A stretch of 6,744 nt of DNA. Source: Flavobacteriales bacterium (GTDB lineage Bacteria > Bacteroidota > Bacteroidia > Flavobacteriales > PHOS-HE28). The stretch spans positions 1 through 6,744 of the forward strand of contig SSGN01000060.1 in NCBI GenBank assembly GCA_008016945.1, written 5' to 3'. Position numbers and translations under genes: made by a program. The notes under the pieces were generated by a model that did no database searches, had not been told where the DNA came from, and was given only the letters and a program-made list of their open reading frames with translations. Shown here piece by piece: positions 1-6,744 of the stretch; position 1 is the stretch's first letter; every line of letters begins with the position of its first letter.

Positions 1-1
1 C

Positions 2-238
2 ATCGGCATCGGCAGCGACGCGGACATCATCCTGCTCGATCCCAACGAGCGCCACACCCTCAGCGTCAAGACCCACCACATGAACGTGGACTACAGCGGC
101 TACGAAGGCATGCAACTCACCGGTAAGGTGAAGACCACCATCCTCCGCGGCCAGGTGGCGGTACACAACGGCGAAGTGCGGATCAAGAAGGGGTACGGGA
201 AGTTCGTGAAGCGGAACAAGGTGAGTGGGATGCTGTGA
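2..238 (+). CDS. hydA: Dihydropyrimidinase, C-terminal end only
   Basis: This is the last 78 residues of a dihydropyrimidinase (D-hydantoinase family), cut by the left window edge. The enzyme hydrolyses the ring of 5,6-dihydrouracil or dihydrothymine to the N-carbamoyl-beta-amino acid in the cytoplasm, step 2 of reductive pyrimidine breakdown. The visible part holds the family's C-terminal signature: GSDADIILLDP (the strand that closes the small beta-sandwich domain), then KTHHMNVDYSGYEGM, then an RGQVAVHNGE strand. The metal-binding histidines, the carbamylated lysine and the catalytic aspartate lie upstream and cannot be checked. The frame is open from base 2 to the TGA at 236-238. Pathway partners follow on the same strand (ureidopropionase, PreT, PreA), which supports dihydropyrimidinase over a generic hydantoinase or allantoinase. 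Confidence 0.9.
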   Translation: MGIGSDADIILLDPNERHTLSVKTHHMNVDYSGYEGMQLTGKVKTTILRGQVAVHNGEVRIKKGYGKFVKRNKVSGML

Positions 239-240
239 AT

Positions 241-274
241 GATTAGCTGATGTGCTGATTCCTGATTAGCTGAT
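241..274 (+). repeat. GATTAGCTGAT repeat pair after hydA
   Basis: Two exact copies of the 11-mer GATTAGCTGAT lie at 241-251 and 264-274, separated by a partial unit (GCTGATT at 253-259). They start two bases after the hydA stop codon and end one base before the structured element at 276. The reverse complement, ATCAGCTAATC, recurs before preA at 5824-5858, and a diverged form follows preT at 5251-5284. The function is unknown. Confidence 0.75.
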
Positions 275-275
275 T

Positions 276-374
276 GGGGCGTTCCGGCGCTCAAATGCAG
301 CGCCGTCGGGCTTTCCCCTTCAAGTCCTCAGCCGGATTACCGGCTTCCGGGCTTTTCGGTACAATCCCTAACGC
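276..374 (+). repeat. Structured intergenic element, copy A (left flank of three-gene block)
   Basis: This 99-bp non-coding element has three blocks that recur in the same order, on the opposite strand, at 2206-2297. The blocks are GGGGCGT (276-282), TCGGGCTTTCC (306-316, followed by TCCTC at about 325-329) and ATCCCTAACGC (364-374). Between the first two blocks is a perfect 7-bp hairpin, CGGCGCT (285-291) with AGCGCCG (299-305). A second hairpin, GCCGG (331-335) with CCGGC (340-344), lies between blocks two and three. The architecture resembles a repeat I associate with Bacteroidota intergenic regions, but that is memory, not a search. An open frame runs through it from a TTG at 274, but the hairpins and the match to copy B argue that it is not translated. 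Confidence 0.7.
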
Positions 375-407
375 GAATGCGGTCCTGTGTTCCTATTTTG
401 TTCGCGT
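371..407 (+). promoter_or_regulatory. Possible leader or promoter region of the three-gene block, with inverted repeat
   Basis: A 7-bp inverted repeat, ACGCGAA (371-377) with TTCGCGT (401-407), frames a 23-base segment holding TATTTTG (394-400). TATTTTG is one base short of the Bacteroidota TAnnTTTG -7 consensus. A TACAAT hexamer also occurs at 360-365 without a matching -35. The region sits 38 to 74 bases upstream of the zinc-ribbon start. It could be a promoter with an operator or simply part of the adjacent repeat element; the evidence is weak. Confidence 0.25.
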
Positions 408-444
408 GTTGATAGAGTGTGAACAGTGCCAACCAGTATCGGCC

Positions 445-651
445 ATGAAGCAAGGAACCCCTACCGCAGGTGCGGTTATCGCTAACCAGAATGGTAGCCA
501 GATGAGCTACTGCAACAAGTGCGAGAAATGCGGTGAAACAAGCCGAAGCTCGAACACAGTGAGTATCCCGTCGAAAGGGAACAAGTACACCAATAACTTC
601 CGCTGCATGAAGTGTGGCAATCAGCAACGAGTGGAGATCATAGGATATTGA
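445..651 (+). CDS. Small zinc-ribbon protein, function unknown
   Basis: A 68-residue protein whose only recognisable feature is a zinc ribbon. One knuckle is CNKCEKCG (residues 23-30) and the other is CMKCG (54-58), so C26/C29 and C54/C57 form a standard CxxC...CxxC metal site, with C23 as an extra cysteine. About 24 polar residues rich in Ser, Asn and Lys lie between them. No signal peptide or membrane segment is visible. Such ribbons usually bind nucleic acid or protein partners, but no function can be assigned. The start is uncertain: the frame is open further upstream (TTG 274, ATG 295), but that stretch is the structured repeat, so ATG 445 is preferred. ATG 502 (MSYCNKC) would also keep the whole ribbon. 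The stop is one base before the next gene, indicating co-transcription with it. Confidence 0.65.
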   Translation: MKQGTPTAGAVIANQNGSQMSYCNKCEKCGETSRSSNTVSIPSKGNKYTNNFRCMKCGNQQRVEIIGY

Positions 652-652
652 A

Positions 653-1357
653 ATGAGCACATTGAGCGCCGTCGAGACCTACCCAGCTTGGCTTGAGATA
701 GAGATCGGACTGGACAGCCATGCCGTCGCTCTTTCGCATGAGCGCCGTACCGAGTTGTTCGAAGAACGGATCAAGCAAGGACTTGAGGCACTGGAACGTG
801 CATGCCCTGGTATCGGATCCAAGCTTGAGGTGTTCCCCGGTCGCCCCTTTGCCTTCACTGGATCGTTAGCCGAGGAAGAGATCCGAGCGATCTGGCACCT
901 TCCTGAATTACGACTGCTTGCTGATCGTGGCGATCCGGACCCTGGCGAACCGCAACCTGACGAGCTGGGCATGCGCCCATTCATCATTTCTGTGCATCAG
1001 TATATTCAAGCAGAGGCAAGCGCTGTGATCAATGTCGAGGCATACACATTGCTCGTGAATGCAAAGGATGAAGAGGATGCGAAGACCAGCGCCGTTGATC
1101 AGTGCTCATCCGCCATGCCGGAGCACTTCATGGGCAGCGACTATGTCATTCATCGGCGCTGGTGGACGGCAGAGCATACCCATGTGAATTCATGGAAGGA
1201 GGATGTGCGGAGCACCTTCGGAAGTGCGGTTGTTTTGGATCGTCGAACGGTTCGCAAGAAGAAGGAAGGAGTATGGCGTCCAGATGGCAGTATTGAAGGT
1301 GTGACATATGGCAGTCCTGCACAACGTCCGAAAGAATGGGAATGGATGTTGGGTTGA
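653..1357 (+). CDS. Uncharacterised two-domain protein (second gene of the block)
   Basis: I do not recognise this 234-residue protein with confidence. Residues about 10-92 alternate strand and helix and contain RPFAFTGSLAEEEIRAIWHLP. This resembles the ferredoxin-like fold of subtilisin-propeptide/inhibitor I9 domains, where a Gly-containing strand precedes an L-x-x-E-x-I helix and a short LPxxR strand. A Pro/Asp/Glu-rich linker (about 92-106) follows. Residues about 107-180 form a second alpha/beta unit (RPFIISVHQYIQ, EAYTLLVNAKDEEDAKTSAVDQ) reminiscent of DUF4288-type domains. The C-terminus is basic, then Trp-rich. Both fold comparisons are inference from pattern. No catalytic motif, signal peptide or membrane helix is seen. 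ATG 653 lies one base after the zinc-ribbon stop, and the 3' end overlaps the next gene by 22 bases, so the three are probably translated as one unit. Confidence 0.75.
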   Translation: MSTLSAVETYPAWLEIEIGLDSHAVALSHERRTELFEERIKQGLEALERACPGIGSKLEVFPGRPFAFTGSLAEEEIRAIWHLPELRLLADRGDPDPGEPQPDELGMRPFIISVHQYIQAEASAVINVEAYTLLVNAKDEEDAKTSAVDQCSSAMPEHFMGSDYVIHRRWWTAEHTHVNSWKEDVRSTFGSAVVLDRRTVRKKKEGVWRPDGSIEGVTYGSPAQRPKEWEWMLG

Positions 1358-2175
1358 ATGCGCTGGAACGCAACCTGCTTGAATCTTATCGACAGCACTT
1401 CAGCGAGGCCCCAAGTTGGGCCTTCCCTGTGGCGCCACCGATTCCGTTCGTTGGTAGAAGCTATCCTGAGAATGGTGGAGGAGTGCTGCTTTATGCAAGT
1501 GCGGAGAACCTTGGCTACACTTGGGATGATGCGAATCCGACGAGGGTTGGATGGGAACTTCACTCAAGCGAAAGGGTCAACAAATGGCCTTGGCTCGGGA
1601 ACTGTTGGAGTCAAATGTTAAGGGGAAGAATCATGCTGGAAAGTGTGGGTGGTACTTCTGTCCACATCGGTCCGATCAACGATGGCACACAACTGAAGGT
1701 CGCACGACACATTGTTCAATGCCTTCGGCCTTTGTCAGGGTTTGCCGAAGCATCGGCCAGGGATTTCTTGGAGCAGATCGCCGTTTCGAATCCGGGCAAG
1801 TACAGCATCTTCTCGCGAACCAATATGGACTATGCAAGAGACGTGGGCAAGTTCAAGGAGATGGTCCCATACATACTTGCTGACTTGAATGCACTGCGTC
1901 CTGAGGTCCTGATCATCCCCGGAACCATCTACAATACGCTACAGCGCACTACTTTGAAGGACAGGTTGGCAGAGGTCCCGAAAGTCGTTCTCATTTCACA
2001 AGTTCAACCGCGACCGATCAGGGTTTGGAGAAGGCCCCTTGCCGAAAAGGAGAGGTGGTGCGTGAACACGGTGCGTTATCGTTGGGATGTTGCGGCACAT
2101 GCCGATCAGTACGTTCAATGGATCGAGGAAAGGAGCATGACCACGAAGTGGGGCGAGCGCATCATCCGACTTTGA
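1336..2175 (+). CDS. Uncharacterised protein, possible uracil-DNA-glycosylase-like fold
   Basis: A 279-residue protein and the third member of the block. Its pattern of strands suggests the uracil-DNA glycosylase superfamily fold: a first strand GGVLLYASAEN (48-58), SIFSRTNMD (157-165) where the family has a strand and Asn-containing motif, LRPEVLIIPGTIYNTL (187-202) resembling the family's L-x-P-x-V-I-x-x-L-G segment, and a late strand VVLISQ near 217. The catalytic GxxPG/GExPG and HPS motifs are not evident, so glycosylase activity should not be assumed. Translation may start at ATG 1336, ATG 1342 or TTG 1354; all overlap or abut the upstream stop at 1355-1357, which points to translational coupling. 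No export signal is visible. Element copy B begins 30 bases after its stop. Confidence 0.75.
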   Translation: MGMDVGLNALERNLLESYRQHFSEAPSWAFPVAPPIPFVGRSYPENGGGVLLYASAENLGYTWDDANPTRVGWELHSSERVNKWPWLGNCWSQMLRGRIMLESVGGTSVHIGPINDGTQLKVARHIVQCLRPLSGFAEASARDFLEQIAVSNPGKYSIFSRTNMDYARDVGKFKEMVPYILADLNALRPEVLIIPGTIYNTLQRTTLKDRLAEVPKVVLISQVQPRPIRVWRRPLAEKERWCVNTVRYRWDVAAHADQYVQWIEERSMTTKWGERIIRL

Positions 2176-2205
2176 TGTCCAAGTGTACTCCTGATCTGAT
2201 AGGTT

Positions 2206-2297
2206 GCGTGAGGGATAGGAGCGGCACCCCGCAGCGAGGAACGAGCGAGGAGTACAGCGGATAGCCCGACCCGAGGCTTTTGCGAGGGGTACGCCCC
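2206..2297 (-). repeat. Structured intergenic element, copy B (right flank, inverted)
   Basis: Read on the - strand, this 92-bp element begins GGGGCGT (2297-2291), continues with TCGGGCTATCCGCT (2269-2256) and TCCTC, and ends ATCCCTCACGC (2216-2206). These are the three blocks of copy A at 276-374 in the same order and with similar spacing. The segment between the first two blocks is again an imperfect palindrome (ACCC...GGGT on the + strand, about 2269-2290), though its sequence differs from that in copy A. On the + strand an AGCGAGGA octamer is repeated at 2233-2240 and 2244-2251, and GCGG/CCGC (2221-2224 with 2229-2232) can pair. No open frame of interest crosses it. Confidence 0.7.
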
Positions 2298-2390
2298 ACA
2301 CCCCATCCAGTCCAGCAGTCCTTTTCAGATCCGCGTTGATCTGCTTCATCAGCATCATCTGCGTTCCATTCCCACATCCCGCCCCGACCC

Positions 2391-2414
2391 GTAGGAAATC
2401 CGCCTACTTCCTCT
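2391..2414 (+). terminator. Weak terminator-like hairpin
   Basis: GTAGG (2391-2395) can pair with CCTAC (2403-2407) around a 7-base loop, followed by TTCCTCTT. The stem has only 5 bp and the tail is interrupted, so termination of the three-gene transcript here is possible but poorly supported. Confidence 0.25.
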
Positions 2415-2460
2415 TAACATTGGGTTCCATCAGAACGAACCATCAGCGCCGATCCGCGGA

Positions 2461-2485
2461 CCCCGGCCGGAACATTGTGCCGGGG
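2461..2485 (+). other. GC-rich hairpin upstream of ureidopropionase gene
   Basis: CCCCGGC (2461-2467) and GCCGGGG (2479-2485) form a perfect 7-bp GC stem with an 11-base loop, ending 32 bases before the ATG at 2518. There is no T-tract, so it is not a classical terminator. It sits between two copies of the family-II repeat and may simply be the internal palindrome of that repeat. Alternatively it could act on the mRNA leader of the downstream gene. Confidence 0.4.
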
Positions 2486-2517
2486 CCTGCGTCATCAGCG
2501 TTCCAATCAGACAACCC

Positions 2518-3384
2518 ATGCCGAGGAAGATCAAGAGCGGACTGATCCAGATGAGCCTCCCGAAGACGGAGGGCGAAGGCAGCATCCAGGAGATCGTGGA
2601 TGCCATGGTGCAGAAGCACATCCCGTACATCGAGAAGGCGGGCCAGCAGGGCGTGCAGATCCTTTGCCTCCAGGAGATCTTCAACACGCCGTACTTCTGT
2701 CCGGGGCAGGACAAAGCCTGGTACGCCAGCGCGGAAACGGTGCCCGGCCCCACCACGGAGCTGATGGCGCAGTACGCGAAGAAGTACAACATGGTGATCA
2801 TCGTTCCGATCTACGAGAAGGAACAGGCCGGCGTGCTGTACAACACCGCCGCGGTGATCGATGCGGACGGCACCTACCTGGGCAAGTACCGCAAGAACCA
2901 CATCCCGCACACGAGCGGTTTTTGGGAAAAGTTCTTCTTCAAGCCCGGCAACCTGGGTTATCCGGTGTTCCAGACGCGCTACGCGAAGGTGGGCGTGTAC
3001 ATCTGCTACGACCGCCACTTCCCCGATGGCGCACGCTGCCTGGGCCTGAACGGGGCGGAGATCGTGTACAACCCAAGTGCTACGGTGGCTGGTCTCAGCG
3101 AGTACCTGTGGAAGCTGGAACAACCCGCGCATGCCGCAGCGAACGGCTACTTCATGGGGTGCATCAACCGGGTGGGGGAGGAGAAGCCCTGGAACCTCGG
3201 GAAGTTCTACGGCCAGAGCTACTTCGTGGATCCACGCGGCCAGATCTTCGCACAAGCCTCGCGCGATGATGATGAGCTGCTTGTCGCGGAATTCGACCTG
3301 GATATGATCGAGGAGGTGCGCAGCACGTGGCAGTTCTTCAGGGATCGCAGGCCGGAGACTTACGGGAGGTTGACGGAGTTGTAA
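2518..3384 (+). CDS. Beta-ureidopropionase (nitrilase superfamily amidohydrolase)
   Basis: A 288-residue carbon-nitrogen hydrolase. The expected reaction is hydrolysis of N-carbamoyl-beta-alanine (or N-carbamoyl-beta-aminoisobutyrate) to the beta-amino acid, CO2 and NH3, the last step of reductive pyrimidine breakdown, in the cytoplasm. The nitrilase Glu-Lys-Cys triad is complete: E53 in CLQEIFN, K126 in YRKNHIP and nucleophile C163 in ICYDRHFP. The length matches the single-domain family, and the PGPTT (76-80), NPSAT (185-189) and GQSYFVDPRG segments are typical. N-carbamoylputrescine amidase is a close relative and cannot be excluded by sequence alone. The neighbours (dihydropyrimidinase upstream, PreT and PreA downstream) make the pyrimidine role much more likely. 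No Shine-Dalgarno precedes ATG 2518. The stop overlaps the first base of an inverted family-II repeat. Confidence 0.92.
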   Translation: MPRKIKSGLIQMSLPKTEGEGSIQEIVDAMVQKHIPYIEKAGQQGVQILCLQEIFNTPYFCPGQDKAWYASAETVPGPTTELMAQYAKKYNMVIIVPIYEKEQAGVLYNTAAVIDADGTYLGKYRKNHIPHTSGFWEKFFFKPGNLGYPVFQTRYAKVGVYICYDRHFPDGARCLGLNGAEIVYNPSATVAGLSEYLWKLEQPAHAAANGYFMGCINRVGEEKPWNLGKFYGQSYFVDPRGQIFAQASRDDDELLVAEFDLDMIEEVRSTWQFFRDRRPETYGRLTEL

Positions 3385-3423
3385 GAACGCTGATGACGCG
3401 GATCTTTATGATGAACGCGGATC
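3384..3423 (-). repeat. Inverted family-II repeat after ureidopropionase gene
   Basis: On the - strand this reads GATCCGCGTTCATCAT, then AAAGATCCGCGTCATCAGCG, then TTCT: two tandem copies of GATCCGCG-T-TCATCA. Its GCGTCATCAGCGTTC core is identical to 2489-2503 on the + strand, so copies in opposite orientation bracket the ureidopropionase gene. It begins at the last base of that gene's stop codon. Confidence 0.65.
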
Positions 3424-3436
3424 AAAGCGAATTGCC

Positions 3437-3844
3437 ATGCCTGACCTGAACAAAGAGAATTACATGCATTCTGAATTGACCGAGCAGGTCATTCAGATGT
3501 TCTACAAGGTATACAACGCTTTGGGGTATGGCTTCTTGGAGAAGGTCTATGAGAACGCGATGTTCCATGAGTTGACCTTGGCAGGACTTCAGGTGAAGCG
3601 CCAACAACCGATCACCGTGTTTTATAATGGTGTGGAGGTCGGTAGCTATTACGCTGACCTCATTGTCGAAGGTCTCGTCATCGTGGAACTCAAAGCTGCG
3701 GAGAGTATTTGTGAGGAGCACGAGTGCCAGTTGATCAACTACCTTAAAGCCACCGACATGGAAGTAGGATTGCTCCTGAACTTCGGCAAGAAGCCTCAAA
3801 TCAAGCGAAAGGTCCACTCAAACTCCTATCAGCGGATATCATAG
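3437..3844 (+). CDS. GxxExxY family protein (PD-(D/E)XK nuclease-like)
   Basis: A 135-residue member of the GxxExxY family. The naming motif is G32-F-L-E35-K-V-Y38, and the PD-(D/E)XK-like core follows: D74 in YYADLIVE, then E84-L-K86 in VIVELKA. All putative metal and catalytic residues of the fold are present. Biological substrates of the family are not known to me, so nuclease activity is inference. The second Met (M10, ATG 3464) is an attractive start, because family members typically begin a few residues before ELTE-x-VI, and AAAGAG at 3452-3457 is the best Shine-Dalgarno-like stretch I noticed before any start in the window. The coding region would then be 3464-3844. The last codons (SYQRIS-stop) are made by a 20-bp direct repeat. 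The gene is unrelated to the pyrimidine pathway on either side and looks like an insertion. Confidence 0.88.
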   Translation: MPDLNKENYMHSELTEQVIQMFYKVYNALGYGFLEKVYENAMFHELTLAGLQVKRQQPITVFYNGVEVGSYYADLIVEGLVIVELKAAESICEEHECQLINYLKATDMEVGLLLNFGKKPQIKRKVHSNSYQRIS

Positions 3845-3902
3845 CCATCCGCGCCACTTGCGTCCCACCTCTCGCTGACACATCCTATCAGCGGGTATCA
3901 TA
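3824..3902 (+). repeat. 20-bp direct repeat pair spanning the GxxExxY stop codon
   Basis: TCCTATCAGCGGATATCATA (3824-3843) and TCCTATCAGCGGGTATCATA (3883-3902) differ at one base and start 59 bases apart. The first copy encodes the end of the GxxExxY protein and two bases of its TAG stop; the second lies in the gap before preT. The spacer (CCATCCGCGCCACTTGCG, CTCGCTGACA) carries further pieces related to the family-II unit. Confidence 0.8.
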
Positions 3903-3913
3903 AAGACCAGCGC

Positions 3914-3928
3914 GATCAGCGTTCCATC
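3914..3928 (+). repeat. Short family-II repeat abutting the preT start
   Basis: GATCAGCGTTCCATC directly precedes ATG 3929 and matches the ATCAGCGTTCC part of the copy at 2489-2504 upstream of the ureidopropionase start. It occupies the place of a ribosome binding site, and no purine-rich Shine-Dalgarno is present. Confidence 0.5.
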
Positions 3929-5251
3929 ATGGCAGAGTACAAGAAACCCACCACCGAAGCCGAGTTCGCGGCCAACTTCCACCCGAAGAAGCCGTTGATG
4001 AGCGACACCGAGGCGTACTACGAGAGTTCGCGCTGTCTGTACTGCTACGATGCGCCGTGCATCAATGCGTGCCCCACAGGGATCGATATTCCGCTCTTCA
4101 TCCGCCAGATCAACGATGGAAACAAGGAGGGTGCGGCCAAGACGATCTACGAGAGCAACTGGTTCGGTCATGCGTGCGGGAATGTTTGCCCCACGGAGGA
4201 ACTGTGCGAAGGTTCGTGCGTGTACAACAACAGCGACGTGAAGCCGATCGAGATCGGGCGCTTGCAGGCGCATGCCACCGACAAGGTGATCCGCAGCAAG
4301 AAGCGGTTGTTCATCACCGCGAAGCCCACAGGCAGGAAGGTGGCAGTGATCGGTGCGGGTCCGGCGGGTGTTTCGTGTGCGTGTGAACTGCGGATGCATG
4401 GGCATACGGTGGACATCTACGAGGCGAAGGCCAAACCGAGCGGCCTTTGCGTGTATGGCGTGGCACCGTACAAGCTCACGAACGAGGAAGCGCTGGACGA
4501 GATGAGCTATCTGCAGGAGCAGTTCGGCTTCAGTATCCACTACAACAAGCCGGTGACCGGTCGTGCCGAACTGGACAAACTGGAGAAGGACTACGACGCC
4601 ATCTTCATCGGCATCGGTCTAGGCGGAACCTCATCGCTTGGTATTCCCGGCGAAGACAAGAAGGGTGTGATGGGTGCACTGGAGTTCGTGGAAGAACTGC
4701 GGAACAAGCACCATGCGACGCCGGTCGGTAACAAGGTGATCGTGCTGGGTGGTGGCAATACGGCCATGGACGCCGCGAGCGAGAGTTGCCGCATGGGCGC
4801 GGAAAGCGTGATCATCGCGTACCGTCGTGGACCGGAAGAGATGGGCGCCTACAGTTTCGAGTTCGATCTGGCGAAGAAGAGCGGAGCGAAGGCCATGTTC
4901 AATGTGACGCCGGTGGAAGTCTTGGGCAATGGTTCGGTGACCGGCGTGAAGTTCATCCGGAACCGTTCCGCCAACGGCAAGCTCGAGCCGATCGCAAGCA
5001 GCGAATTCGTGGAGCCCTGCGACATGGTGCTGCTTGGGACAGGTCAAGGCAAGCAAGCCAATTTGTTGGAACAGGTTTCAGACCTCACGTTGGACCAGAA
5101 TGGTCGCATCGTGGTGAACGAACACTTCCAAACGACCAACGCCAAATACTTCACCGCAGGCGATGCGATGAACGGTGGGGTGGAAGTGGTGAACGCCGCG
5201 GCGGAGGCGAAGAAGGCGGCGCATGGGATCGATGAGTTCCTGAAGAAGTGA
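3929..5251 (+). CDS. preT: NAD-dependent dihydropyrimidine dehydrogenase, flavin/Fe-S subunit PreT
   Basis: This 440-residue FAD/NAD and iron-sulphur subunit passes electrons between NAD(H) and the PreA catalytic subunit for reduction of uracil or thymine. It corresponds to the N-terminal half of eukaryotic DPD and to the GltD-like family. Cysteines C36, C39, C44 and C48 (CLYCYDAPCINACP) and C83, C87, C93 and C97 (CGNVCPTEELCEGSC) lie in the N-terminal domain. Q113 (GRLQA) is 16 residues after C97, the same spacing as C140 to the unusual cluster ligand Q156 in mammalian DPD, so two [4Fe-4S] clusters with one Gln ligand are likely. The FAD site is GAGPAG (142-147), the NAD site GGGNTAMDAA (274-283), and the second FAD contact is TAGDAMNGGVEVVNAAAEAK near the C-terminus. 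Length is normal. PreA follows after one inserted gene. Confidence 0.95.
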   Translation: MAEYKKPTTEAEFAANFHPKKPLMSDTEAYYESSRCLYCYDAPCINACPTGIDIPLFIRQINDGNKEGAAKTIYESNWFGHACGNVCPTEELCEGSCVYNNSDVKPIEIGRLQAHATDKVIRSKKRLFITAKPTGRKVAVIGAGPAGVSCACELRMHGHTVDIYEAKAKPSGLCVYGVAPYKLTNEEALDEMSYLQEQFGFSIHYNKPVTGRAELDKLEKDYDAIFIGIGLGGTSSLGIPGEDKKGVMGALEFVEELRNKHHATPVGNKVIVLGGGNTAMDAASESCRMGAESVIIAYRRGPEEMGAYSFEFDLAKKSGAKAMFNVTPVEVLGNGSVTGVKFIRNRSANGKLEPIASSEFVEPCDMVLLGTGQGKQANLLEQVSDLTLDQNGRIVVNEHFQTTNAKYFTAGDAMNGGVEVVNAAAEAKKAAHGIDEFLKK

Positions 5252-5284
5252 TCAGCTGATGGGATGATTAGCCGATCAGCTGAT
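5251..5284 (+). repeat. Palindromic ATCAGCTGAT repeats at the preT 3' end
   Basis: The perfect 10-bp palindrome ATCAGCTGAT occurs at 5251-5260 (its first base is the last base of the preT stop) and at 5275-5284. Between them, GATTAGCCGAT (5266-5276) is a one-mismatch copy of the GATTAGCTGAT unit found after hydA and, inverted, before preA. The possible long start of the next gene (ATG 5264) lies inside this repeat. Confidence 0.7.
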
Positions 5285-5299
5285 GAAATACCTGACGTG

Positions 5300-5806
5300 A
5301 TGGAAGAGTTCGAGGAGTTCATTCCGGGTGATCGAGCTGATTGGCTCGCGATCTGTGATGCTGTGATCGAGGAAGATCGCTCGGAGCAGCTCGACGGTAT
5401 GGTCGCTCAAGAGCCTCAGGCGAGTTACTCCGGTAGTCCGCTTTATCGCGACAACCTGTTGCTCAAGGAAACCTTTGAATTGTCCGTTCGGACCATCCGG
5501 TTCGTGAACCAACTCGGTTGTGAGCGGGCATGGTTGATCGACCAGTTCGAACGTTCGGCTTGTTCGCCGGGAGCGAATTCTAAGGAAGCCCAGAATGCAG
5601 AAAGTCTAAAGGATTTCGTCCACAAACTGAAGATCGCGCTGAAGGAAGCCGACGAGGCAGAATACTGGTATTACCTCATCGCCGCCACACATGATAAGGG
5701 CATCGACGAGGATCTCATCGCCCGTATCCAACGCGTCATGCGCATCCTGAACAAGATCTTAGGCACCTCAAAACAACGCCTATTATCGCGCAAGAACACC
5801 AAGTAG
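5300..5806 (+). CDS. Four-helix-bundle protein (S23/TIGR02436-like)
   Basis: A 168-residue protein whose residues about 45-150 fit the four-helix-bundle family historically called S23 or 23S-rRNA intervening-sequence protein. The hallmarks are LLLKETFELSVRTIRFV (helix 1), WLIDQFERSACSPGANSKEA (the family's QL-x-RSA-x-S-x-x-AN-x-xE signature, degenerate), then DFVHKLKIALKEADEAEYW (the K-x-x-IA-x-x-E-x-x-E-x-x-YW helix). About 45 acidic N-terminal residues precede the bundle, making it longer than the usual roughly 120. The function is unknown; relatives form pentameric bundles, and one branch is the Avd accessory protein of diversity-generating retroelements, but no reverse transcriptase is present here. 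ATG 5264 would add MISRSADEIPDV encoded by repeat DNA, so ATG 5300 is preferred; ATG 5399 is a third option. The gene splits preT from preA. Confidence 0.85.
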   Translation: MEEFEEFIPGDRADWLAICDAVIEEDRSEQLDGMVAQEPQASYSGSPLYRDNLLLKETFELSVRTIRFVNQLGCERAWLIDQFERSACSPGANSKEAQNAESLKDFVHKLKIALKEADEAEYWYYLIAATHDKGIDEDLIARIQRVMRILNKILGTSKQRLLSRKNTK

Positions 5807-5823
5807 CTGTCGCCCACCAAGCC

Positions 5824-5858
5824 ATCAGCTAATCGTCAAATCAGCTAATCAGCTAATC
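5824..5858 (+). repeat. Triple ATCAGCTAATC repeat before preA
   Basis: ATCAGCTAATC occurs at 5824-5834, 5840-5850 and 5848-5858, the last two overlapping by three bases. It is the exact reverse complement of the GATTAGCTGAT copies after hydA. The array ends two bases before the preA ATG and leaves no room for a Shine-Dalgarno sequence. Confidence 0.8.
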
Positions 5859-5860
5859 AA

Positions 5861-6744
5861 ATGGCCGATCTCCGAACCAACCTCGCAGGCATCAAGAGTC
5901 CCAATCCATTCTGGCTGGCGTCCGCCCCACCCACCAACTCCGGCTACCAGATCATGAAAGCCTTCGACGCGGGCTGGGGCGGTGCTGTATGGAAGACATT
6001 AGGTGTGCCCGTGGTGAACGTGAGCAGCCGCTACGGCAGCGTGAACTACCGCGACAAGCGCATGGTGGGCTTCAACAACATCGAGCTGATCACCGACCGG
6101 CCGTTGAAGGACAACCTGCGCGAGATCAGCGAGGTGAAGAAGCGTTTCCCGGACCATGCGGTGATCGCGTCATTGATGGTGGAGACGAAAGAAGAATGGC
6201 ACCAGATCGTGCGCGACGTGGAAAACGCGGGTGCAGACGGTATCGAACTGAACTTCGGTTGTCCGCACGGCATGTGCGAGCGCGGCATGGGTAGCGCGGT
6301 GGGGCAGGAGCCGAAGGTGTTGCAGATGATCGTGGAGTGGGTGAAGGAGGTAGCGAAAGTCCCGGTGATCACGAAGCTCACGCCGAACATATCGGACATC
6401 ACGCGCCCGGCGCGGGCGGCAAGGGCCGGTGGTAGTGACGCGATCTCGCTGATCAACACCATCCAGAGCATCGTGGGTGTGGACATCGACCAGTTCGTAC
6501 CCTACCCGATCGTGGATGGCAAGAGCACCAACGGCGGCTATTGCGGCCCGGCCGTGAAGCCCATCGCGCTGAACATGGTGAAGAACTGCGCGCAGCATCC
6601 TGAAGTCAACCTGCCGATCAGCGGCATCGGTGGCGTGGAGAACTGGCGCGATGCAGTGGAATTCCTCCTGCTCGGCGCCACGAGCGTTCAGGTCTGCACG
6701 GCCGTGATGCACTTCGGCTTCGGCATCATCCGCGATCTGAAGAG
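5861..6744 (+). CDS. preA: NAD-dependent dihydropyrimidine dehydrogenase, catalytic subunit PreA (3' truncated by window)
   Basis: The first 294 residues of the FMN-dependent catalytic subunit, which reduces uracil or thymine to the 5,6-dihydro form with electrons from PreT; the right window edge cuts the gene. The TIM-barrel part shows the DPD signatures: NPFWLASAPPT (15-25), WGGAVWKTLG (39-48), FNNIEL (71-76), the active-site loop N131-F-G-C134-P-H-G-M with C134 as the likely general acid, MGSAVGQ (143-149), KLTPN (172-176), substrate-contacting N199-T200, and the FMN-phosphate region ISGIGGVENWRDAVEFLLLGA. DPD of mammals has Ser where G133 stands; Gly is, as I recall, usual in this bacterial branch. 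The C-terminal ferredoxin-like domain with two [4Fe-4S] clusters expected for PreA lies outside the window. The start follows directly on the ATCAGCTAATC array. Confidence 0.95.
   Translation, partial: MADLRTNLAGIKSPNPFWLASAPPTNSGYQIMKAFDAGWGGAVWKTLGVPVVNVSSRYGSVNYRDKRMVGFNNIELITDRPLKDNLREISEVKKRFPDHAVIASLMVETKEEWHQIVRDVENAGADGIELNFGCPHGMCERGMGSAVGQEPKVLQMIVEWVKEVAKVPVITKLTPNISDITRPARAARAGGSDAISLINTIQSIVGVDIDQFVPYPIVDGKSTNGGYCGPAVKPIALNMVKNCAQHPEVNLPISGIGGVENWRDAVEFLLLGATSVQVCTAVMHFGFGIIRDLK

Follow-up and report, generated by a model that had tools for sequence, protein, structure and literature searches.

Flavo-1-like elements as probable polar borders of exchangeable gene cassettes in a family of Flavobacteriales

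The window analysed here is the whole of a 6,744-nucleotide stretch of a Flavobacteriales bacterium (contig SSGN01000060.1 of assembly GCA_008016945.1, positions 1 to 6,744). It contains two related structured elements, which lie in inverted orientation around three small genes, between the end of hydA and a carbon-nitrogen hydrolase gene. Comparison with related genomes gives good support to the idea that these elements serve as polar borders of a cassette whose genes, here called cargo, can be exchanged. The explanation that we regard as rather probable is that the borders, at a conserved docking site, are acted on by a HuH transposase of the type of the REP-associated tyrosine transposases (RAYTs; REP, repetitive extragenic palindrome), with the cargo being replaced between them. 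The border role rests on sequence comparison; we infer the RAYT/HuH enzyme, the recombination chemistry and the single-stranded reading of the elements. The elements would be recombination sites that are read, in a REP-like manner, as single-stranded DNA, and the RAYT-type enzyme that reads them would often occupy the cargo position itself. An inverted pair would correspond to a very large REPIN (an inverted REP doublet) with genes in its middle; this middle could be exchanged or lost, and the borders would mostly stay and be inherited. Homologous recombination between the conserved flanks or the repeated elements may do part of the work.

The first-pass annotation of the window had proposed two related, inverted elements of about 95 bases, and both were confirmed in their places. 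Independently, they are the two best Rfam matches in the window, both to the Flavo-1 motif (RF01705; 300-379 on the minus strand, E 0.0039, and 2197-2275 on the plus strand, E 0.0085), with scores (Table 1) that fall short of the Rfam gathering cut-off of 42 bits; the remaining five matches have E values of 0.32 or worse. The full element extends from an outer GGGGCGT (276 and 2297) to an inner GCGT(T/G) (374 and 2206). The target-site duplication that was missing in the first-pass annotation was not visible on re-inspection either.

Exchange of cargo between paired elements

The comparisons cover 45 genomes of an environmental Flavobacteriales family, in which copies of the element were found with a family model, R1. 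An orthologue of the right flanking gene (93–100% identity, E 1e-60 or better) is present in 10 of these genomes. We take this gene, following the name given in the first-pass annotation, to be that of a beta-ureidopropionase. There are 11 alleles at the hydA/ureidopropionase site including the window, and eight of them (the window and seven relatives) have the inverted pair. Some paired copies are decayed, namely the right copies of L002 (28.6 bits) and L009 (32.3 bits) and the truncated right copy of L284 (23.8 bits). The window has its cargo in common with L004 (99.3%), L001 has its cargo in common with L003 (77%), and the cargos of L002, L005, L009 and L284 contain no shared protein cluster; there are therefore six distinct cargos in eight pairs. 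The right copy of the window is 97% identical to that of L001 and 96% identical to that of L003, and both of these relatives have cargo unrelated to the cargo of the window. Between L002 and L003, the left copies have 99% identity and the printed outer flank is identical as well; the identity ends at the inner GCGTG. Copies at this site can thus be 96–99% identical as far as the inner GCGTG, with unrelated cargo past that point.

Paired boundary elements around a cargo, as had been suggested for the window, are therefore what relatives with the same neighbours display, with the cargo exchanged inside the pair. The expectation of an empty site in relatives with adjacent hydA and ureidopropionase genes fared less well: no clean one was found, and there are three cargo-less alleles instead. 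One of them (G006) retains a decayed left copy (23.4 bits). In the other two (G026 and G028), the 232-bp intergene contains neither cargo nor a match to the element model; these alleles are not clean empty sites, because a decayed copy is possible by eye.

Neighbouring cassettes were also observed. In L003, cassettes at 947-4116 and 5618-6367 lie near each other with hydA between them, and in L205, cassettes at 42-4253 and 5725-9011 lie near each other at one docking region; one region can therefore hold more than one cassette.

Polarity, docking sites and fold across the family

At least 375 R1 copies were found in 43 of the 45 genomes. Copy numbers are lower bounds, with at most 150 first-look candidates scored per genome (at most 90 in one search), and the genome searches used an E value of 0.01 in one case and 0.001 in two others. 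Polarity was measured as the distance from the end of the element to the point where homology with another genome resumes. The median distance is 82 bp on the outer side vs 1,239 bp on the inner side (105 copies, 635 comparisons), and the inner distance is larger for 87 of the 105 copies; the exceptions include L072, L084, L239, L006 and L041. Copies without a neighbour (n = 28) show the same tendency, with 68 bp outside, 870 bp inside and a larger inner distance in 22 cases. The element therefore marks a side, conserved outside and variable inside.

The first-pass annotation had asked whether inverted pairs are commoner than chance, and in this family this was borne out for outward-facing pairs. 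Among 81 neighbouring copies less than 6 kb apart, 38 are outward-facing (-+), 19 are +-, 16 are -- and 8 are ++. The outward-facing excess has p-values of 1.6e-5 against a quarter and 0.016 against +-, both inflated by shared ancestry, with the same orthologous sites counted in several genomes. Two loci, L065 (which overlaps L223) and L004 (which has the cargo of the window), were omitted from the count of paired copies in the fetched regions, from the cassette catalogue and from the comparison of copy identity, and were kept in the polarity count and the site grouping. Outside the family, 14 of 60 Bacteroidia genomes contain Flavo-1 matches that reach the cut-off; among the matches listed there, no clear outward-facing excess was seen, the neighbours being too few for an orientation test.

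When the fetched regions were grouped by flank similarity, 111 of 130 items fell together with at least one other item, and a few of the groups are confined to one genome or one duplicated locus. The largest group, site 0, has 27 items with 15 cassettes; site 1, that of the window, and site 2 each have 12 items with eight cassettes, and further sites are smaller. One representative of each of two sites was checked: site 0 has a FadB-like gene and a thiolase gene as its neighbours, and site 2 is flanked by a 4-hydroxyphenylpyruvate dioxygenase and, on the opposite side, by a gene that has no solved relative. Cargo is seldom shared within these sites: a common cargo family was found in 5/104, 1/27 and 0/28 between-genome cassette pairs of sites 0, 1 and 2, respectively. 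Cargo also recurs at different sites. L075 and L242 share 1,819 bp (79%) that stop 17 bp from the elements, and L093 and L215 share 1,968 bp (87%) that stop 23 bp from them; L073, which has no site assignment, and L216 share 2,635 bp (86%). As a separate observation, two docking regions of G010 (L241:4978-6221 and L238:1123-2366) have in common 1,244 bp that are 99.9% identical; the counterpart in G027 is about 90% identical, and the stretch is possibly an insertion sequence.

The fold of the element was derived from 35 copies aligned end to end. Read from its inner end, it starts with GCGTGAG and continues with a long stem, which two 3x3 internal loops interrupt, and a variable hairpin at the apex, followed by a second hairpin and, at the outer end, GGCACGCCC. 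The stem with two 3x3 internal loops is that of the Flavo-1 consensus, the inner GCGTG base-pairs with the outer CACGC, and the second hairpin, beside the outer end, had not been distinguished in the first-pass annotation. The outer ends of a pair, GGGCGTGCC and GGCACGCCC, are inverted repeats of each other. In the MAFFT alignment of the 35 copies, which was not fitted to a model, 98.0% of 690 cells are paired, with 63 two-sided vs two one-sided changes, and the covariation score was matched by none of 500 shuffles. A model-fitted alignment of 147 copies has 366 two-sided vs 15 one-sided changes among 2,893 cells, 98.3% of which are paired. Selection on the structure of the element, as proposed from the two window copies, is thus borne out by compensatory change. 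The claim of structure is based on this covariation across relatives rather than on the folding of the window copies: as single-stranded DNA, the left copy folds to the consensus (z -3.2, 1/200 shuffles as good), and the right copy alone does no better than shuffles (z 0.43, 136/200). G-U pairs are nearly absent from the stems, which suggests selection on DNA or on both strands.

A weak consensus, GCATTTC, lies directly before the inner GCGTG (144 copies), so that the conserved border may extend a few bases into the cargo side. Many copies also have a similar GCATTTG in the hairpin 2 loop, and the two could form a guide-like base match. Guide-like base matching occurs at the ends of IS200/IS605 elements. 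It was also observed that the outer hairpin types CCC/GGG and CGG/CCG are exchanged between left and right in L005 (5810-6935) relative to L001 (5680-6394), and the core stems are not.

The transposase link and the rival explanations

The link to a transposase starts from a gene beside a copy in G001, which matches NCBIfam NF047646 (REP-associated tyrosine transposase) with 47 bits against a cut-off of 80 and matches no Pfam family. An alignment of this gene with four relatives (query A2) revealed RAYT genes of the A2 type in 31 of the 45 genomes. The 61 matches were reduced to 50 places, with eight rows merged into four and seven short or weak rows omitted; with the omitted rows, the share within 1 kb of a copy is at most 10/57, and by our own reading, none of the seven lies within 3 kb of a listed copy. 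Ten of the 50 places lie within 1 kb of a copy and 17 within 3 kb. The corresponding numbers for the control genes, which represent one family (PF13366), are 0/95 and 2/95 (Fisher 1.2e-5 for 1 kb and 1.6e-7 for 3 kb). Nine of the ten close RAYTs are on the inner side of the copy, at distances of 7-970 bp, and one RAYT lies within an inverted pair (G013:C74). In the cargo, there is also at least one match to DDE_Tnp_1 among 96 proteins, as counted among the matches listed (25 of 44 families).

Several findings weigh against RAYT-driven replacement of cargo between resident borders. The association with the enzyme is incomplete: 33 of the 50 RAYT places have no copy within 3 kb, so that the idea that RAYTs generally flank copies fails, and 12 of the 14 genomes without an A2-type RAYT still contain copies. 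The ten close cases are not all independent, because the RAYT query itself was met beside an element. No copy was found in the loci of about 3 kb (L121-L125) around five Y1 transposases recognised by Pfam in three of the first eight genomes. The canonical REP foot is absent from the copies, an excision product was not seen, and among the loci assigned to genomes, there is no clean empty site. At site 6, cargo is common to 3/3 pairs. Orthologous copies with different inner DNA have a mean identity of 0.76 (304 pairs), only moderately above the 0.70 of unrelated copies, and the borders are therefore not always resident. The inflation of the orientation p-values belongs here as well. Finally, of the 171 copies mapped in the fetched regions, which over-represent some genomes and pairs, 84 belong to -+ pairs and the other 87 do not. 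Elements that occur singly had been named in the first-pass annotation as a sign that the pairing in the window is coincidental; the 87 copies outside outward-facing pairs agree with that, but the lone copies are still polar.

The strongest rival is homologous recombination. The sites would be ordinary defence hotspots, in which RecA-dependent recombination exchanges the contents between the conserved flanking genes or between the elements, the latter serving as plain repeats. The elements would mark the borders, with no dedicated enzyme acting on them. We give this a modest chance of being right. The flanks are long and mostly about 75–95% identical between genomes, same-site copies are more alike across genomes than unrelated copies are, and many genomes have copies without an A2-type RAYT; in Pseudomonas aeruginosa, as far as the accessible text goes, core defence hotspots exist without a single defining mobile element (PMC10250203). 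However, homologous recombination leaves unexplained why the same structured element occurs at many unrelated sites, with a fixed polarity, a compensated fold and abutting RAYTs. Alternatively, whole cassettes including their elements could transpose as units whose inverted ends of about 95 bases are cut at the outer ends. The mutual inverted repeats at these ends, the recurrence of cargo at different sites and the RAYT-bearing cassette G013:C74, which looks like an autonomous unit, would fit such a transposon. We nevertheless consider it unlikely, since sister species have near-identical copies beside unrelated cargo at one and the same site, where the borders therefore stayed and the cargo changed. 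In addition, neither a target-site duplication nor a clean empty site was seen.

Integron gene cassettes combine interchangeable cargo with a folded recombination site, attC, and the elements could be attC-like sites of a tyrosine integrase, with cargo captured at the GCGTG/CACGC closing stem. The imperfect inverted-repeat topology, the variable apical part and the precise cargo junction point in this direction. The pairs, however, are inverted, outward-facing being the commonest arrangement, and do not form direct arrays. Integron core-site boxes have the form RYYYAAC/GTTRRRY, and none was recognised by eye in the consensus; no search for an integrase was made. This reading is quite improbable. 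Still less credit can be given to the view, first proposed for Flavo-1, that the elements are RNA genes or cis-regulatory RNAs whose position around cargo is incidental. Rfam does file Flavo-1 as an sRNA, but the two copies of a pair both point away from the cargo, whichever way the cargo is oriented, and G-U pairs are scarce. Moreover, according to the accessible part of a transcriptome study, Flavo-1 matches are sense or antisense alike and many are not transcribed (PMC9723704).

Two further candidates were rejected. A transcription terminator or operon boundary, which had been among the first suggestions for the window, has no support because cargo genes run in both orientations between the same borders; most single copies also keep their polarity. 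A simple canonical REP is ruled out by the length of about 95 bases and the absent foot.

Cargo genes, related systems and significance

Table 1. Features of the window (both element copies belong to the training set of R1, which bears on their R1 scores)
Feature	Position	Strand	Remarks
Left border element (Flavo-1-like)	276..374	-	5' inner end 374, 3' outer end 276; Flavo-1 29.5 bits, R1 93.2 bits
Right border element (Flavo-1-like)	2206..2297	+	5' inner end 2206, 3' outer end 2297; Flavo-1 28.2 bits, R1 82.7 bits
End of left flanking gene (hydA according to the first-pass annotation)	2..238	+	orthologue in L001-L006, L009, L284-L286
Right flanking gene, carbon-nitrogen hydrolase	2518..3384	+	CN_hydrolase 8e-66
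Cargo gene 1 (trimmed orfA, 68 aa, CxxC zinc-ribbon-like)	445..651	+	76% identical homologue of residues 58-124
Cargo gene 2 (orfB, 234 aa), without known domain	653..1357	+	
Cargo gene 3 (orfC, 279 aa), predicted uracil-DNA-glycosylase superfamily fold	1336..2175	+	

The three-gene block described in the first-pass annotation holds as far as the presence of genes between the elements is concerned. The start given for its first gene does not: in orfA as called (274-651), the first 57 residues are translated from the element. The best homologue outside L004 aligns only from residue 58, and cargo gene 1 is therefore probably shorter (Table 1). The homologue of residues 58-124 lies beside an element at another site, in L210 (G022). 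OrfA has a weak match, under the cut-off, to the TFIIS zinc ribbon. OrfB gave nothing above the cut-off in Pfam; it has 27 database proteins including itself, none of which has a Pfam domain. Homologues of orfB and orfC were noted on contigs of equal size (3,459 and 13,682 bases), and the two genes may therefore be a conserved two-gene module. Elsewhere in the window, GATTAGCTGAT-like repeats at 241-275, 5246-5290 and 5822-5858 flank the end of hydA and a four-helix gene (23S IVP-type). Genes of the GxxExxY and IVP types are present or absent among relatives at neighbouring intergenes.

Recognised defence genes occur in at least 14 of 43 cassettes, and judged from these matches, the cargo appears to be often, but not always, anti-phage. 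An exclusively defensive cargo is unsupported, as 29 of the 43 cassettes have no assigned recognised defence gene in what was scanned. PADLOC matched 183 families among 96 cargo proteins vs 51 among 91 outer flanking control genes, and 25 families of each list were examined by name. The control genes thus match as well, Fic proteins occur in both sets, and some control genes themselves lie in neighbouring variable DNA. The scan covered 43 cargo frames singly and 96 of 98 in bulk (the two omitted were L055:10928-11323 and the element-derived window frame 274-648); of the 164 outer frames listed, some of them twice, 91 were scanned.

Several known systems resemble parts of this picture. The Flavo-1 motif agrees with the element in its stem, including the two 3x3 internal loops, and in its conserved letters, as far as the accessible text of its description extends (Weinberg et al. 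2010, PMC2864571), whereas the element described here is longer, with a second hairpin and a closing stem, and behaves as a DNA border. In the first eight relatives, 76 of 78 Flavo-1 matches are under the 42-bit cut-off and two reach it; these matches were taken at E up to 1, and weak ones may be due to chance. In the accessible parts of the open-access papers found, no function is stated for Flavo-1. The REP/REPIN/RAYT systems likewise consist of structured intergenic repeats, inverted doublets and an adjacent REP-associated tyrosine transposase (PMC6006769, accessible part). In the same part of that paper, the “atypical secondary structures” that border the genes of a Bacteroidetes subclass of TnpAREP, 2.6, are said to recur at other places in the genome. 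The elements studied here may belong to this type, a likeness drawn from the description and not from compared sequences. REPs differ in having a GTRG tetranucleotide at the 5' foot and a short palindrome of 20-40 bp, whereas the copies here start with GCGTGAG and have about 95 bases (by eye); REPINs enclose a short spacer and the pairs here about 0.5-6 kb of genes.

The core defence hotspots of Pseudomonas aeruginosa, in the accessible part of their description, are likewise fixed sites between core genes with a hypervariable anti-phage content (PMC10250203). The sites described here differ in their small size (about 1-6 kb) and in their borders, a repeated structured element that several sites have in common. 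The cassettes of integrons have in common with those described here a swappable cargo by a folded site; here, inverted pairs occur at many sites and no array was seen. In the open-access literature, we found no link of Flavo-1 to cassettes or of RAYTs and REPINs to cargo genes, and no description of defence cassettes bordered by such repeats.

It can be proposed, tentatively and as a possibility of some weight, that instead of being RNA genes, Flavo-1 and related elements serve as single-stranded-DNA recombination borders of RAYT-driven cassettes, in effect giant REPINs with cargo, which swap mainly defence genes at fixed docking sites throughout the Bacteroidota. In this way, a structured motif that has been an orphan since its description in 2010 would gain a concrete, testable role. 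Such borders would extend the biology of REPs and RAYTs from silent repeats to gene-carrying units and would give the defence hotspots of chromosomes their physical borders. To look on the inner side of the element would be a rule for finding new anti-phage genes, for which the glycosylase-fold protein of the window and its partner are candidates.

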